Source of the DNA: Pseudomonadales bacterium
GTDB lineage: Bacteria > Pseudomonadota > Gammaproteobacteria > Pseudomonadales > Azotimanducaceae
DNA length: 35,649 nt
Direction: 5' to 3'
Assembly (NCBI GenBank): GCA_030749725.1
Contig: JASMJM010000162.1
Coordinates: 1-35,649, forward strand
Of the stretch, positions 1-25,344 are shown one piece after another; the first letter of the stretch is position 1; every line of letters starts with the position of its first letter. A program made the position numbers and the translations under genes. A model generated the notes under the pieces. It was not told where the DNA came from, ran no database searches, and saw nothing but the letters and a program-made list of their open reading frames with translations.

Positions 1-633
1 ATCGTTGTAGACCGGGCAATTCTGGTAGATCTCGATGAAGGATGAACCATCGTGCAGGTAACCCCTTGATATCACCGCAGACAGTTGTTTCATCTCGGTG
101 TCGATAGAACGCCCTACGAATCGGGCCCCTGCCCCCAGCGCCAGTCCACAAGGCGAAATAGGCATGTCGACGGACCCGTCCGGCGTCGAAGGGGATATTG
201 TTCCCACCTTTGAAGTGGGTGAAGCCTGGCCCTTGGTCAATCCATAGATCTCGTTGTTGAACAGGATGATCTGCATATTCACGTTCCTGCGCAGGGCGTG
301 AATCATGTGGTTACCACCGATACTCAAGCCATCGCCATCACCTGTGATGACCCATACATCCAGATCGGGATTGGCCAGCCTGACCCCGGTGGCCACAGCA
401 GGGGCTCGGCCGTGAATGGTGTGAAAACCGAACGTGTCCATGTAATAAGGAAGACGGGAGGAGCAGCCAATGCCGGAGATAAACACCTGGTTCTCCTTTT
501 TCACCCCCAGTTCCGGCAGCAGCTTCTGGATCGTTTTCAAGATGGCGTAGTCGCCACATCCGGGACACCATCTTACTTCCTGATCTGAGGCGTAGTCCTT
601 GACTGACAGTTTCCGATCCGTGACAACGCTCAT
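1..633 (-). CDS. korB: 2-oxoacid:ferredoxin oxidoreductase, beta subunit (partial; C-terminus outside window)
   Basis: The first 211 codons are visible; the gene runs off the left edge. The beta subunit binds thiamine pyrophosphate and a [4Fe-4S] cluster and, with the KorA subunit, oxidatively decarboxylates a 2-oxoacid, probably 2-oxoglutarate, in the cytoplasm, passing electrons to ferredoxin. Visible signs are the CPGCG motif (Cys23, Cys26), Cys57 in GIGCSSR and Cys206 in QNCPVYN, which together give the four expected cluster ligands. The TPP/Mg motif GDGDGLSIGGN starts near residue 98 and is followed by NNEIYGLTKGQ. The start ATG at 633 overlaps the korA stop as ATGA, so the two are translationally coupled. 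Substrate preference for 2-oxoglutarate over pyruvate is inferred from resemblance to the two-subunit KorAB type of actinobacteria. Confidence 0.93.
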   Translation of the reverse strand, partial: MSVVTDRKLSVKDYASDQEVRWCPGCGDYAILKTIQKLLPELGVKKENQVFISGIGCSSRLPYYMDTFGFHTIHGRAPAVATGVRLANPDLDVWVITGDGDGLSIGGNHMIHALRRNVNMQIILFNNEIYGLTKGQASPTSKVGTISPSTPDGSVDMPISPCGLALGAGARFVGRSIDTEMKQLSAVISRGYLHDGSSFIEIYQNCPVYND

Positions 634-2501
634 GGGCACCGCTCCAATTCAGATTCAATGGCCTGCTCGATCTCGCTGATCTTAAAGGGACGGCCCGATA
701 CTTTATTGAGTCCCTTGGCATCGATCAGATACTGGGATCTCACCAGGTTTACGAACTGACCGGTATTCATCTCCGGTATCAGCACGCGCTCATAGGATGC
801 CAGTAACTCACCCAGATTGGCGGGCAATGGCCACATGTAGCGTACGTGTATATGGGAAACATCCCTGCCCTGCTCACTTGCTCGTCGCACGGCACCATGG
901 ATCGGACCGAACGTGGATCCCCACCCCACTAGCGCAAGTTTGCCGCCCGGGTTACCGAGGATGACCTGCTGCGCTGGAATGTCCCCGGCAATGCCATCGA
1001 TCTTGGCTTTACGGATATCGGTCATCTTCTGGTGATTGGCTGGTTCGTAACAGATATCACCTGTCTCCGAGTCCCTTTCGATGCCGCCTATGCGGTGTTC
1101 CAATCCAGCGGTTCCCGGCTTGGCCCAAACTCTTGCCAGCGTCAGAGGGTCCCTCTTGGCGGGCGTGAATCCTTCAGCGTCTGCATGGTAGTTGACAGGA
1201 AACGGTTCATACTGATGAAAATCCGGAAGATTCCAGGGCTCCGATGCATTGGCAAGATAGCCATCGCTCAAGACGATCACCGGGGTCATGTACTTGGTCG
1301 CCAGGCGCACCGCCTCGATGGCTATATCAAAACAGTCTGCCGGCGTAGCGGCAGCAATGACCGGCATGCTGGCATCGGCGTGCCGGCCAAACAGGGCCTG
1401 ATTAAGATCGGACTGCTCCGTCTTGGTGGGTAATCCTGTGGAGGGGCCACCGCGCTGCGTATTGACCACGACCAGCGGCAATTCGACTGCACTACACAAG
1501 GATATGGCCTCTCCCTTCAGGGAGATGCCGGGACCTGAACTGGAGGTCACGCCCAGCGTGCCAGCGAAAGAGGCACCGATAGCTGCACAGACCGCGGCGA
1601 TCTCATCCTCCGCCTGAAAGGTCATTACATCAAATTCCTTGTGATTGGAAAGGGCGTGGAGCAGCGCCGTCGCCGGCGTGATGGGATAGGACGCGAATAG
1701 AATATCCAGATCCGCCAATTGACCTCCTGCCAGCAGACCCCAGGCGAGTGCTTCAGTGCCGTTCACGTTGCGATATACCCCCGCCGGAAGATCCGCTTTG
1801 GGGATCTTGTACACCTCGACGCCGGCGGGCAACTCTGCCGTCTCACCATAGGCGTGGCCCGCATTGATAGCGGCGATATTGGCTTCAGCCATAGCGGGTT
1901 TGGCTGCAAATTTGCGGTTCAGTCCGTTGATGGTTTCAGTGCGATCACGATCGAACAGCCACATGATCAGGCCCAAGGTCCACATATTCTTACAGCGTAT
2001 CGAATTCTTTTTACTCAGACCGAAGGGTTTTACCGCTTCCAACACCTGCTTGGTGACATCGATATCGATGACGCGATAGCCATCCAGGGACTCATCCTCG
2101 AGCGGATTGGCTTCGTATCCCGCTTTGGTGAGATTTTTTGCAGTAAAGGCACCGCTATCGGCAATGATCAACCCGCCCTCTACCAGATCCTGCAGATTGG
2201 TAACCAGCGCGGCGGGATTCATTACCACCAACACATCCAACTCGTCACCAGCCGTTGTGACGTCATCTGAGCCAAAATAGATCTGGTATGCCGATACGCC
2301 AAACGTGGCGCCCGCAGGAGCTCTGATCTCTGCTGGGAAATCGGGGAATGTAGCCAGGTCGTGGCCATAGAGGGCGGTAGCCTGGGTGAAATTCGTTCCG
2401 GTGAGCTGCATGCCGTCGCCGGAATCACCGGCAAATCGGATCACGACTCCCTGAACGGGCGTATCTGTATTGCGTGAACCCACATCCCCTAAGACAGTCA
2501 T
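630..2501 (-). CDS. korA: 2-oxoacid:ferredoxin oxidoreductase, fused gamma-alpha subunit
   Basis: A 623-residue protein if started at ATG 2501; a GTG two codons upstream (2507) is equally possible and neither has a strong Shine-Dalgarno. In the 625-residue numbering, the N-terminal gamma domain spans about 18-200 (FAGDSGDGMQLTG, then FPDFPAEIRAPAG). The alpha/pyrimidine domain begins near 245 and carries YPITPAT at 274-280, TSSSGPGISLKGEAI from 321 and RGGPSTGLPTKTEQSDL from 352. This gamma-alpha fusion with a separate beta subunit is the known KorAB arrangement that makes reduced ferredoxin from 2-oxoacids, typically 2-oxoglutarate to succinyl-CoA. No ferredoxin domain is fused, so a separate ferredoxin must be the acceptor. 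It is first in its operon; korB follows with an ATGA overlap. Confidence 0.93.
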   Translation of the reverse strand: MTVLGDVGSRNTDTPVQGVVIRFAGDSGDGMQLTGTNFTQATALYGHDLATFPDFPAEIRAPAGATFGVSAYQIYFGSDDVTTAGDELDVLVVMNPAALVTNLQDLVEGGLIIADSGAFTAKNLTKAGYEANPLEDESLDGYRVIDIDVTKQVLEAVKPFGLSKKNSIRCKNMWTLGLIMWLFDRDRTETINGLNRKFAAKPAMAEANIAAINAGHAYGETAELPAGVEVYKIPKADLPAGVYRNVNGTEALAWGLLAGGQLADLDILFASYPITPATALLHALSNHKEFDVMTFQAEDEIAAVCAAIGASFAGTLGVTSSSGPGISLKGEAISLCSAVELPLVVVNTQRGGPSTGLPTKTEQSDLNQALFGRHADASMPVIAAATPADCFDIAIEAVRLATKYMTPVIVLSDGYLANASEPWNLPDFHQYEPFPVNYHADAEGFTPAKRDPLTLARVWAKPGTAGLEHRIGGIERDSETGDICYEPANHQKMTDIRKAKIDGIAGDIPAQQVILGNPGGKLALVGWGSTFGPIHGAVRRASEQGRDVSHIHVRYMWPLPANLGELLASYERVLIPEMNTGQFVNLVRSQYLIDAKGLNKVSGRPFKISEIEQAIESELERCP

Positions 2502-2515
2502 ATTCACTTATCTCA

Positions 2516-2785: not shown

Positions 2786-4315
2786 TCAGATCGTGCGCAA
2801 GCGCAGCACGACCGATCCCATGATGATCTGATCGCCGTTGTTCATGGTGATCAAGCCCTTCTGGTCGATCGACTGACCGTTTATGGTGGTGCCGTTGGTA
2901 GTATCCAGATCTTCGATAAAGAGCCGATCTTTGCGCAGTTTCATTCGGATGTGCTGGCGCGATACATCACTGTGGTTGATCACATAAGGTGAATCGGGTG
3001 GGTTTCGTCCAATCACGACACCCTCGTCCGTTACCAGTTGATCTGCAGAGATCCTGAGAAGATAACGTACCCCATCCCTGTCCTCACCATCCAGAACATA
3101 TTCGGATAGGTTGGCTTTCTGCATCTCTGTGCTTGGGGATTCAAGCTGAGGTCCATGCACTTTCGGATTCACATCCCGTTTTGACAGATAGAAGACAGCG
3201 GCCACCAAGAGGACAAAGAGCCCAATAAGGCCGCCGAGCAGCACCTTCTCCGCCATCTCTGCCTTGCTTCTCTGATCGGCCAGGGCCGCGTTGAGATTCT
3301 GTTCACGTTCAGAGTATTCCGACTGCATCGTTGTCAAGGCTGCCTTGGTTTCCGCCATGATCTCGTTGCTGCGTCGGGTCACTTCCTCCCGGGCTGCCTG
3401 TGCCGCCCGGGCTGCGGCGGCAGCATCCGTGATCGCTTGGCCTGCCCTCTTCTGAGCAGTTTTGGTCTGTTGCAGCAGGTTGTCGTTTTTCTTATTTACG
3501 TCGGATAGCTGACGGGCCAGTTCGTTGGCTTTTAGCATGGCTTTGTCGGCTTCGTCTTTGGCTTCCTTGGCACTTTCCGAAGCCTGCTCGGCACTCTGTC
3601 GAGCTTGTGCTATGGCCGAAAGACAACTGCCGCCCGCAGTTTTGATATTGAGATTCTGCTCAGTCAGTAGTGAACCCAGGGACCCGCCCTGCATCGCATA
3701 GGCAACGCCGGCTGCGTCACCCGGCGAGGAGACACTAAAGCCCACAATCTCACCACATTCGTTCAGCAACGGTGACCCGAATCCGGATTCACCCAGGGAT
3801 GCATTGTGCATCAACATGCGCACCTGGGCACTCAGCCCCGGCACGACGTAGCGTCTGCTGATGCTACCCTTTGACAGCCACACCGTTCTGCCTCGATCCG
3901 CCCGGATCCCTGCCGACCATACTGAGTCGCCCTCTTCAAGCGCCTCGCGTGCAAAGATCAAAGCTGGTACTCGAAGGCCGTTAACTTTCAGAACCGCAAG
4001 ACCCAGGGAATCGTCCGCCAACAGATTCGCAGCAACCAGTTGAGCTTCCGATCCAGGAATGCTGACGGTGACGGTTTCTCCGCGAGTCAGTACCTGGGCA
4101 CTGGTCACTACAAAGCCGTTGTAGATATCACTTTCGACGACAAAGCCGATCCCGGCGCCAACTACCTTATTGCCACTGTAGCTGCGCACGGCGACGATAC
4201 TCTTATTGATCTCCTGAATCTGAATATCCCCACTCGCAGGCAGCGTCGTGAACGCCAGCATCACAGCGAGGAAAAGCCGGCTGTAGATTCTGGAATGAAG
4301 GGTACATGGAGCCAT
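2786..4315 (-). CDS. Membrane-anchored protein: degenerate trypsin-like (HtrA-type) domain, coiled coil, C-terminal FHA domain
   Basis: A 509-residue protein. Residues 1-29 look like a signal sequence. Residues ~35-215 resemble an S1C/HtrA protease fold, with FVVTSAQVL where VVTNAHV is expected, so the catalytic His is Gln74. GLAVLKV replaces DLAVLKV, so the catalytic Asp is Gly105. GESGFGSPLL stands where GNSGGPL is expected, leaving Ser177. Two of three triad residues are therefore missing and the domain should be inactive. Residues ~233-357 are an Ala/Glu/Lys-rich coiled coil, 358-377 a transmembrane helix followed by SKR, and ~415-509 an FHA domain with GR (436-437), SRQH (452-455) and TTNGTTING (472-480). 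The predicted layout is a periplasmic pseudoprotease and coiled coil with a cytoplasmic phosphothreonine-binding FHA. This suggests a sensor or scaffold for Ser/Thr phosphorylation, but no kinase gene is in the window. It is divergent from the LLM gene. Confidence 0.85.
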   Translation of the reverse strand: MAPCTLHSRIYSRLFLAVMLAFTTLPASGDIQIQEINKSIVAVRSYSGNKVVGAGIGFVVESDIYNGFVVTSAQVLTRGETVTVSIPGSEAQLVAANLLADDSLGLAVLKVNGLRVPALIFAREALEEGDSVWSAGIRADRGRTVWLSKGSISRRYVVPGLSAQVRMLMHNASLGESGFGSPLLNECGEIVGFSVSSPGDAAGVAYAMQGGSLGSLLTEQNLNIKTAGGSCLSAIAQARQSAEQASESAKEAKDEADKAMLKANELARQLSDVNKKNDNLLQQTKTAQKRAGQAITDAAAAARAAQAAREEVTRRSNEIMAETKAALTTMQSEYSEREQNLNAALADQRSKAEMAEKVLLGGLIGLFVLLVAAVFYLSKRDVNPKVHGPQLESPSTEMQKANLSEYVLDGEDRDGVRYLLRISADQLVTDEGVVIGRNPPDSPYVINHSDVSRQHIRMKLRKDRLFIEDLDTTNGTTINGQSIDQKGLITMNNGDQIIMGSVVLRLRTI

Positions 4316-24175: not shown

Positions 24176-25344
24176 TTATCCAATCAGGCTGAACTGTCTG
24201 GTCGCACGAATGTCTCGGCTGGAGCTGCCTACTCTCAGTTCATAATCACCCGGTTCGACCAGCCACTCTTTCTGCTGCGGATCATAGAACGCCAGACTTC
24301 TTGCAGCTAGATTGAATCTAACGACCTCACTTTGCCCAACATCGAGCGTGATCTTGGCAAAGTCCTTCAGTTCCTGTTCCGGTCGCGTCAAGCGGGGACG
24401 CAGATGTCGAATATATAGCTGTACGACTTCAGTGCCCCTTCTGGCACCGATGTTTCTGACTTCGACGGTACACTCTACATCTTCTGGTGAAGAGTAGTGA
24501 TCCTCCTGCAACGAAATCTCTGCATACTCGAACTGTGTATAGGAGTTGCCATGGCCAAACGGGAACAGTGGCTCAACGCGCTTTTTGTCATAATAGCGAT
24601 AGCCCACGAATATTCCTTCGCCGTAACGCACCTGACCATTGTCACCCGGATAGTTAATGAAGGCGGGATTATCTTCCAGCCGTTCTGGAAATGTCTGGGT
24701 CAGTCGCCCGGAAGGGTCACAATCACCGAACAGAACATCCGCAATGGCGTTACCGCATTCCTGTCCCGGGTACCAGCATTCCAGCACCGCAGGCACCTGA
24801 TCCAACCAGTCAGACATGACCAGCGATGAACCATTGTTCAGCACCACTACGGTACTCCTGTTAGCCTTCGCGACCTCCTGTATCAGTTTCACCTGATCGC
24901 CGCACAACTGCATAGGGCAGTGCCAACTCCCTTGGACTGCACGCCTTTTATAAAAGCCACCGCCATCCGGGCGGTCAGATAGGGATCTTCCGAATAACAC
25001 TCGAAATTCCTTCCTGCGAGCGGCGATCGATGGATGTTGACTGTCGGACCCAGCAGAATCTGTGCACCTTTGGACAGCGCCTCCTCGCCGAGGAGCTGAC
25101 CCACCCGGTTGATGAGTTCAACGTTCCAGCTTGCGGCAAGCGCTGTTCCCACTGGTAGGCAGACGGAGGTCAGGTCGCTGCGCGCTTCTCCTCTTGCGCC
25201 ATTGGGCCCATCGGTCATCTTGAAGGCGGGGATTTCAAGTCTTTGCACTCCAGTCGAGTGCCACAGGTTCGCGCCCGCCACCATCGACACCTTCTCAGCC
25301 AGGGTCATGCTGCGCAGCATTTGATCTATCCTTGTCTCCATCAT
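24176..25344 (-). pseudogene. Glycoside hydrolase family 3 (beta-glucosidase) remnant with internal deletion and frame change
   Basis: Two parts in different frames. Part one (25344 to about 24920) is the start of a GH3 barrel: MTLAEKVSMVAGANLWH, KMTDGPNGARG, LPVGTALAASWN, GPTVNIHRSPLAGRNFECYSEDPYL. Part two (about 24920 to 24176) begins inside the second GH3 domain with CGDQVKLIQEVAKANRSTVVVLNNG and GQECGNAIADVLFGDCDPSGRL, then an Fn3-like domain (DVECTVEVRNIGARRGTEVVQLYI) to the normal end. Missing are the KH motif, the SAYN segment and the nucleophile motif (V-S-D-W), several hundred residues in an intact enzyme. The frame also changes at the junction (24905-24925), where part one meets a stop at 24889. 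The first ATG overlaps the peptidase stop as ATGA. No active hydrolase is expected, unless the deletion is an assembly error. Confidence 0.88.

Follow-up and report, generated by a model that had tools for sequence, protein, structure and literature searches.

A predicted membrane protein of Azotimanducaceae that joins a degenerate S1C protease domain to a C-terminal FHA domain

The DNA analysed here, referred to as the window, is the whole stretch of 35,649 nucleotides at positions 1 to 35,649 of contig JASMJM010000162.1 (assembly GCA_030749725.1), from a Pseudomonadales bacterium of the family Azotimanducaceae. The gene in question lies on its minus strand (2786..4315, read from 4315 to 2786) and is a 509-amino-acid open reading frame (ORF) with an ATG start, predicted to encode a protein with a pseudo-S1C domain, a coiled coil, a transmembrane (TM) helix and an FHA domain. 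The initial annotation gave these coordinates correctly and did not state the strand; the plus strand is interrupted by stops at this place. All features described below are on the minus strand. The N-terminus looks like a signal peptide when judged by eye (residues ~1-29, 4229..4315, cleavage site also placed by eye). It is followed by a predicted periplasmic pseudo-S1C domain of the HtrA/trypsin-like type (residues 30-232, 3620..4228), delimited by Pfam, alignment and hhalign, in which Pfam placed Trypsin_2 at residues 55-192 (E 3.8e-16). A search of the protein with Pfam did not match a PDZ domain at E <= 1. The next segment, residues 233-355 (3251..3619), is a putative coiled coil as seen from the alignment and the heptad spacing of its Ala residues. 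Hydropathy gave a single hydrophobic stretch (~352-382) followed by K/R residues, with the TM helix at residues ~356-378 (3182..3250) and the C-terminus predicted to be cytoplasmic. The predicted cytoplasmic FHA region, defined by Pfam and alignment, covers residues 405-509 (2789..3103) and holds G436, R437, S452, R453, H455, N474, G475, T476 and N479. Its Pfam FHA match is at residues 433-500 (E 2.2e-15), and the sole further family above cut-off was a type III secretion system FHA-like model on the same stretch. The signal sequence, the long coiled coil (~124 residues with Ala heptads), the one TM helix and the GR (436-437), SRQH (452-455) and TTNGTTING (472-480) motifs of the FHA domain, all of which had been claimed initially, were found.

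Catalytic positions were read from a MAFFT alignment of the family rows that included three plain HtrAs from the window genome. The losses of the catalytic His (Gln74) and Asp (Gly105) had been reported in the initial annotation, and the alignment agrees with both exactly. The loss of the nucleophile Ser, which is replaced by F179, had been overlooked. The segments MHNASLGESGFGSPLLN and QTDVAINPGNSGGPLFN are equally long between the conserved loop and P-L-x-N, and F179 is aligned without a gap. Since all three catalytic residues are lost and the Ser loop aligns gap-free, the case is stronger than first stated. Ser was kept in 0 of 14 tabulated rows of the window clade (the close homologues of the window protein, described below) and in 0 of 8 other pseudo rows, whereas all nine intact rows and all three plain HtrAs have it. 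His was kept in one of the 14 clade rows and Asp in 10. Judged from these sequences, the loss of Ser is the mark of the clade, and the loss of Asp is atypical (4 of 14 rows, including the window). The other 13 clade rows have I, F, L, V, A or a gap at the Ser position. A possible objection is that the S1C domain still cuts by means of another nucleophile, as the window protein has other Ser residues a few positions away from the lost one. None of these neighbouring Ser residues shows the conservation within the clade that a nucleophile would have, however, the gap-free alignment puts F at the Ser site itself, and the window protein is also without His and Asp. We therefore find a non-canonical protease extremely hard to believe.

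That the S1C part has a trypsin-like fold, the other point on which the initial annotation could have failed, was not refuted. In a profile-profile comparison with hhalign, 13 clade rows matched the three plain HtrAs with 98.7% probability and the nine intact S1C-FHA rows with 99.8%, and a control with a slice of the coil gave 0.0.

Homologues of the complete protein are not restricted to the window. A protein search of 58 relatives gave three further full-length homologues and one that is split, and the full-length homologues are 36-41% identical to the window protein. With an alignment of four rows as the query, 26 of 200 genomes of the family matched at E <= 1e-15. Twenty-two of these belong to the window clade, three (G087, G100 and G152) carry other members, and G014 matched in the S1C part only. 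Clade membership was assigned by the match together with the position relative to the neighbouring gene korA. Clade copies thus occur in 22 of 200 family genomes and in 8 of 37 sampled genera, including the genus of the window. Given the full-length homologues and the copies across genera, the layout appears to be beyond chance. Fourteen of the 22 clade copies were tabulated, with G019, G058, G084, G092, G121, G145, G174 and G081 omitted. The first six of those omitted are interrupted, split or partial, although assembly errors are possible, and the copy in G174 is at a contig end; the G066 copy is an open frame without the N-terminus. These damaged copies, together with the many relatives that are without the gene, could mean that the gene is a decaying relic with no function. 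Long open frames, a near-invariant FHA core, an invariant Cys pair, invariant coil heptads and a constant coil length all argue against this, as does a ratio of nonsynonymous to synonymous substitution rates (dN/dS) far below 1 for FHA, S1C and coil alike in the single pair that could be used throughout. A relic is, in our view, very improbable.

To look beyond the family, genomes of the order, class and phylum were searched. At the order level 17 of 390 genomes matched at E <= 1e-12, and ten of these did so in the S1C part only. The class and phylum searches matched 337 of 369 and 382 of 398 genomes, respectively, at E <= 1e-18. These tallies are uninformative on the family, because the matches were almost always confined to the S1C part. 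Fifteen loci from the class and phylum searches were read, of which one (L142) stayed unresolved, and further S1C-TM-FHA proteins were found through these searches and through the tandem loci described below. A related-locus search of genome contigs gave a single locus, an S1C match (residues 52-207) in Halanaerobium. The rows outside the clade number 17: eight without Ser (G087, G100, G304, G276, G240, G295, G487 and G605) and nine with an intact triad (G487, G100, G087, G605, G602, G572, G1056, G660 and G783). The member in G152, which stops at a contig edge beside a VWA-type gene, was left out of the tables.

The proteins gathered in this way share an S1C domain, one TM helix, a C-terminal FHA domain and a Cys pair, and by its sequence features the window protein is a member of this S1C-TM-FHA family. 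The pair corresponds to Cys187 (3755..3757) and Cys231 (3623..3625) in the window and was present in 31 of 31 family rows; the three plain HtrAs from the window genome have a Cys at neither site. It would form a disulfide tying the barrel to the end of the domain, where the coil starts. The distance from the second Cys to the TM helix is 124 residues in all 14 clade rows, 87-142 in the eight other pseudo rows and 10-86 in the intact rows. A long coil was considered as a sign of dead copies only and was ruled out as such, as the intact rows reach 86 residues and the pseudo rows start from 87; a long coil goes with dead copies, yet is not restricted to them. Every one of the 14 clade rows has R437, S452, R453, H455 and N474 in its FHA domain. 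Neither the window protein nor any of the scanned S1C-FHA relatives scored above the cut-off of an NCBIfam model.

Two side observations touch on this family. One protein (L205, G783:C40, 119-1519, minus strand) is S1C-TM-FHA with an intact triad and a 70-residue linker, and its FHA domain is without R437, S452 and R453. It looks like a mirror image of the window protein, an active enzyme with a possibly dead reader. In addition, a phylum-level family (f252; L169, L170, L171, L173, L175 and L184) has S1C with intact-looking triad motifs and, by eye, what seems to be the same Cys pair. Behind the S1C part come a coil-like stretch and hydrophobic segments, and the C-terminal part is not FHA.

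Trees were built with pseudo and intact labels that had been set by eye from the triad beforehand. In the whole-protein tree, the nine intact and the 22 Ser-less rows form the two sides of one branch (support 100/99), and within the Ser-less part the window clade forms a single group (99/99). A tree of the S1C domain with an HtrA outgroup, from which the triad columns and three columns on either side had been removed, also separated the Ser-less rows (96/89) from the intact rows (98/92). The FHA-only tree supported the window clade (95/97) and left the remainder unresolved. The initial annotation had reasoned that homologues with an intact triad would make the loss a simple mutation. Such homologues do exist, namely the nine intact rows, but the whole-protein and S1C trees place them on a branch of their own, a separation that the FHA-only tree leaves unresolved. 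Since none of the 22 tabulated members of the Ser-less branch keeps Ser and the nine whole-triad relatives branch separately, the loss is not a single stray mutation. The simplest reading of the trees would be one old split into active and dead lines, with the dead line maintained afterwards. A single origin of the dead line is likely, keeping in mind that several end branches are long and that the labels were drawn from the triad itself.

Constraint differs strongly between the regions. Mean pairwise identity in 13 full clade rows was 78.6% for FHA, 39.6% for S1C, 42.2% for the coil and 29.4% for the TM helix. The dN/dS was 0.04 for FHA, 0.12 for S1C and 0.18 for the coil in one of five pairs, the only pair usable in all three regions. 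Ala is invariant in 13 of 13 clade rows at positions 238, 242, 245, 249, 252, 256 and 259 and again at 287, 291, 294 and 298, which is a 4-3 heptad spacing. The FHA reader head is thus the most constrained part as far as the sequences tell, and the coil looks tightly packed. The S1C domain seems to diverge under purifying selection, as would be expected of a binding domain that tracks varied ligands.

Next, the gene neighbourhoods of the family were compared. Stretches around the 22 window-clade copies (3.3-18 kb long, with the window represented by its first 14 kb) and around 13 other loci (6.0-19.5 kb) were compared by tblastn at 1e-6. The queries (kinase, PP2C, TolQ-like, VWA-type, small-FHA, korA and korB) were drawn from five of the 13 outside loci, the window and one clade locus, and match themselves there. 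The survey of neighbours for kinases and phosphatases that the initial annotation had proposed was positive outside the clade, where PP2C was found in 12 of the 13 loci, a Ser/Thr kinase in 10, a small FHA protein in 10, a TolQ-like protein in 9, a VWA-type protein in 9 and korA in none. Pfam confirmed PP2C, MotA/ExbB, kinase and VWA on examples, with one VWA slightly below cut-off. One TolQ-like, one VWA-type and one small FHA protein from these islands gave no NCBIfam match at E <= 1e-5. A defence system was considered and set aside: a PADLOC scan yielded weak matches to the coil and to TolQ-like proteins, and its kinase and protease matches were generic. As a side observation, the FHA-PP2C-S1C-VWA-kinase-TolQ cluster of islands L088-L092, L200 and L216 looks like a conserved membrane phospho-signalling complex. 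In the ORF lists, seven of the eight pseudo loci (G100, G087, G605, G295, G276, G304 and G240, but not G487) have a PP2C gene immediately upstream of the dead gene. In four of these eight loci, the lists also show an intact S1C-TM-FHA gene coming right after the pseudo gene. With the start codons as predicted, stop and start overlap at the junction in G487, G100 and G087, and there is a 19-bp gap in G605. This tandem, abutting arrangement suggests that the pseudo and intact products act together.

The tandem pairs bear on the direction in which such a protein might work. It could be an inside-out scaffold, in which cytoplasmic phosphorylation is read by FHA, clusters the protein and switches a periplasmic partner such as an active S1C protease. 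The pseudoprotease would then be the output rather than the sensor. The model for this is MamO switching on MamE: according to the passages on MamO in PMC4794232, it has a degenerate active site and activates MamE-dependent proteolysis. The four pseudo/intact S1C-TM-FHA gene pairs with their abutting frames agree with such a scaffold, as does the FHA head being the most constrained part. Nevertheless, the window genome has no intact S1C-TM-FHA partner, since among its six FHA and four Trypsin_2 matches both domains occur together only in the window ORF. An intact twin was also not found in the ORF lists of the stretches examined at the pseudo loci G295, G276, G304 and G240. By analogy, an inside-out scaffold is conceivable, although we regard it as unlikely. 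We hold considerably more tentatively than our preferred reading, and as a possibility rather than an expectation, that active and dead HtrAs, both with cytoplasmic FHA heads, form a hetero-oligomer in a membrane complex with the kinase, PP2C, TolQ-like and VWA proteins, in which phosphorylation and periplasmic proteolysis cross-control each other. The window clade would then be the receptor stripped of its twin and rewired to kinases in trans.

The preferred reading is that the window protein is a non-catalytic transmembrane S1C receptor or adaptor of the inner membrane that is read out by its FHA domain, and we consider this probable. Its basis is a dead S1C domain, a coil, a TM helix, a complete FHA core, a conserved family and phospho-signalling neighbours in relatives, and from these we infer the topology, the disulfide, the oligomer, the phosphothreonine binding and the signalling. 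In such a receptor, the dead protease pocket would bind a periplasmic peptide, a protein or a partner protease. The Cys pair would lock the barrel onto the start of the alanine coil, and the coil would mediate oligomerisation and relay a switch in state across the TM helix. In the cytoplasm, the FHA head may then dock a protein whose threonine has been phosphorylated in trans by a Hanks-type kinase from another locus of the genome. Most outside relatives encode a kinase and PP2C nearby and four encode an intact twin; in this reading, the window clade has retained the receptor alone. The gene context supports FHA-based signalling, and a ligand, a partner and a direction are proposed here as parts of the model. 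The initial annotation had linked a periplasmic pseudoenzyme to a cytoplasmic phosphothreonine reader. The predicted periplasmic and cytoplasmic layout, joined by coil and TM helix, bears out that link, and the outside-to-inside direction of signalling stays a putative part of it.

Several results count against a receptor of this kind. The kinase, PP2C, TolQ, VWA and small FHA queries matched in 0 of 22 window-clade stretches by tblastn, and in the window itself neither a kinase nor a phosphatase was found in the first 14 kb. Since none of the 22 stretches matches a kinase or its companions, the link of the clade to kinases comes from homology alone. The only kinase tried as a partner, described below, does not track the FHA gene. 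The gene is also dispensable, given that several copies in the clade are interrupted and that it is missing from many close relatives. Outside the clade, the FHA residues are not always kept: R437 is replaced by K in three of the eight other pseudo rows and N474 by G in one, and S452 is lost in three of the nine intact rows. The S1C-only tree leaves the window row unresolved outside the other 13 clade rows (93/88), and the FHA-only tree does not split pseudo from intact rows. Lastly, a structure of useful confidence is lacking: the ectodomain (residues 30-235), predicted from the window sequence only, had a mean predicted local distance difference test score of 37.7, which is too low for use.

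Possible partners were sought in the window genome, which is 3.84 Mb in 173 contigs. It gave three Pkinase matches at E <= 1e-15 and one PP2C_2 match in addition to the FHA and Trypsin_2 matches given above, and a Trypsin_2 search did not find a second S1C match on the window contig. The kinase on contig C124 was tried as a partner and rejected, as it matches at E <= 1e-60 in 31 of 200 family genomes, and none of these is among the other 21 carriers. At E <= 1e-15, a kinase of any sort was found in 20 of 22 carriers vs 9 of 16 non-carriers with a close korA, a comparison in which the 16 non-carriers were hand-picked from close-korA genomes and kinship, genome size and completeness are ignored. 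Both kinase-less carriers (G121 and G145) have interrupted copies of the gene. The excess of kinases among carriers is therefore a hint at most.

Two other loci in the window genome were noted in passing. One (L197, G000:C64, 2064-11418) encodes a kinase with TPRs, a MotA/ExbB protein, a C-terminal FHA protein that is Hsp70-like by eye, and two 'SFLD...CGFGA' membrane proteins, one of them VWA-like below cut-off. S1C is absent, and the cluster resembles the islands of the relatives apart from this. At the other (L037, G000:C122, minus strand, 297-1265 and 1259-2530), an intact-triad S1C gene overlaps an N-terminal-FHA gene with hydrophobic segments. Here the same two domains are split over two coupled genes, and the Cys pair is absent.

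In the window, the FHA gene is followed on the same strand, 278 bp downstream, by korA (630..2507), a neighbour conserved in position only, and then by part of korB (1..612), which was identified by tblastn. The korA product is the alpha subunit of a 2-oxoacid:acceptor oxidoreductase (TIGR03710, above cut-off). By tblastn, korA was present in 21 of 22 clade stretches and korB in 20 of 22, and the clade is an orphan offshoot beside korA-korB. This raises the question of whether the protein might be a membrane-tethered regulator of the 2-oxoacid:ferredoxin oxidoreductase KorAB, by analogy with OdhI and GarA. According to the relevant passages of PMC2773412, GarA inhibits KGD in mycobacteria and OdhI inhibits ODH. 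In all 21 loci korA is downstream on the same strand; it is no more than ~460 bp away in 20, and in one (L097) an SDR gene intervenes. The 22nd locus is a 3.3-kb contig that ends before the korA position. The association does not hold in the other direction, however. At E <= 1e-60, korA was found in 110 of 200 family genomes vs the 22 with the FHA gene, and no korA match was obtained in the 13 loci outside the clade. In 10 of 16 loci with a close korA and no FHA gene, the usual gene of the block (PhyH-like or a thiamine pyrophosphate enzyme, named by eye) is directly upstream of korA. The adjacency is best explained by a position that was inherited and a gene that was lost repeatedly. Attractive though an OdhI/GarA-like role is, gene position is its sole support here, and we consider a KorAB regulator improbable. 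Between the upstream enzyme gene and korA in one such genome (L128, G179, 3512-3760, minus strand) there is an 82-amino-acid ORF. It is likely a relic of the FHA C-terminus, with the last FHA strands recognised by eye, and thus a trace of gene loss that also speaks against a KorAB regulator. Farther along the window, at 24176-25344 on the minus strand, are two short overlapping ORFs that are jointly too short for a whole enzyme. We take them, from their motifs, to resemble the two ends of a GH3-type glucosidase, and they are probably an internally deleted or broken gene.

No description of the S1C-coil-TM-FHA combination was found in full-text literature searches, which is weak evidence given that subscription journals are thinly covered. 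Outside signals can switch some bacterial Ser/Thr kinases by way of extracellular domains that the kinases themselves carry, such as PASTA. The literature searched apparently holds no description of a receptor in which a periplasmic protease or pseudoprotease is coupled to a phosphothreonine reader, and such a protein would be an unstudied kind of signalling receptor. If our reading is true, pseudoenzyme function, kinase signalling and envelope proteolysis would meet in one defined protein, and the natural active/dead pairs would allow a direct test of the role of the dead partner. For annotation, S1C plus the Cys pair, a TM helix and FHA marks the family.

Several known systems share parts of this layout. 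The window protein has the S1C domain of the HtrA/S1C proteases, but neither their triad nor their C-terminal PDZ domain. DegS is an active periplasmic S1C protease with a PDZ domain and an N-terminal membrane anchor that functions in envelope signalling through the sigma-E pathway. The window protein matches DegS structures over residues ~53-197 and differs by its missing triad, the missing PDZ match, the C-terminal TM helix and the FHA head. MarP-type membrane serine proteases gave a weak profile match on S1C (E 4.9e-6, below cut-off) and a structure match over residues 37-232. MarP has a disulfide as well, and it is an active protease behind an N-terminal multi-TM region and has no FHA domain.

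With respect to FHA proteins, OdhI and GarA are small, soluble actinobacterial proteins controlled by PknG. Their FHA domain is related by sequence to that of the window protein (NCBIfam OdhI E 1.5e-5, below cut-off; 24.9 bits vs an equivalog cut-off of 200), and the window gene is beside a 2-oxoacid oxidoreductase, but OdhI and GarA are without a TM helix, coil or S1C domain. The threonine-phosphorylation module of the type VI secretion system (T6SS), PpkA-PppA-Fha/TagH, has a kinase, PP2C and an FHA protein encoded together, with no S1C domain. The window protein did not match the TagH model TIGR03354 at E <= 1, and its relatives reached 33-42 bits vs a cut-off of 120. T6SS genes were not recognised by eye in the ORF lists of the loci, for which no search with T6SS models was made. 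In the passages of a 2008 domain survey that list it, one FHA-FHA-Trypsin protein of Bacteroides thetaiotaomicron has FHA and trypsin in one chain as here, but with FHA N-terminal, that is, in the reversed order (PMC2605481); those passages are silent on a TM helix, a coil, an inactive site and kinase clusters. An eLife 2020 survey of conflict systems (PMC7159879) names trypsin, VWA and PP2C partners, and TolQ does not occur in it. FHA is mentioned three times there, once as a sporadic effector domain, once combined with PIN and once in a reference, and the passages that we cite do not describe the S1C-TM-FHA layout.

The closest likenesses are to proteins in which a protease-like domain is put to another use. 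In the passages on RsgI9 in PMC12203970, this anti-sigma-I factor of Clostridium thermocellum is a transmembrane protein whose extracellular, protease-like S1C domain binds cellulose or polysaccharide. It resembles the window protein as a transmembrane signalling protein with an outer S1C-like domain (structure match 7sjy, E 6.5e-4), but its cytoplasmic part is an anti-sigma region processed by proteases and not FHA. MamO is not known to have an FHA domain or a link to Ser/Thr kinases, and the NCBIfam MamO and MamE models matched an intact twin only far below cut-off. What MamO and the window protein have in common is a degenerate HtrA-like site on a serine-protease fold. An active partner encoded alongside, as MamE is for MamO in the passages mentioned above, is missing from the window contig and is found in four distant relatives, in which the dead gene adjoins its active twin.

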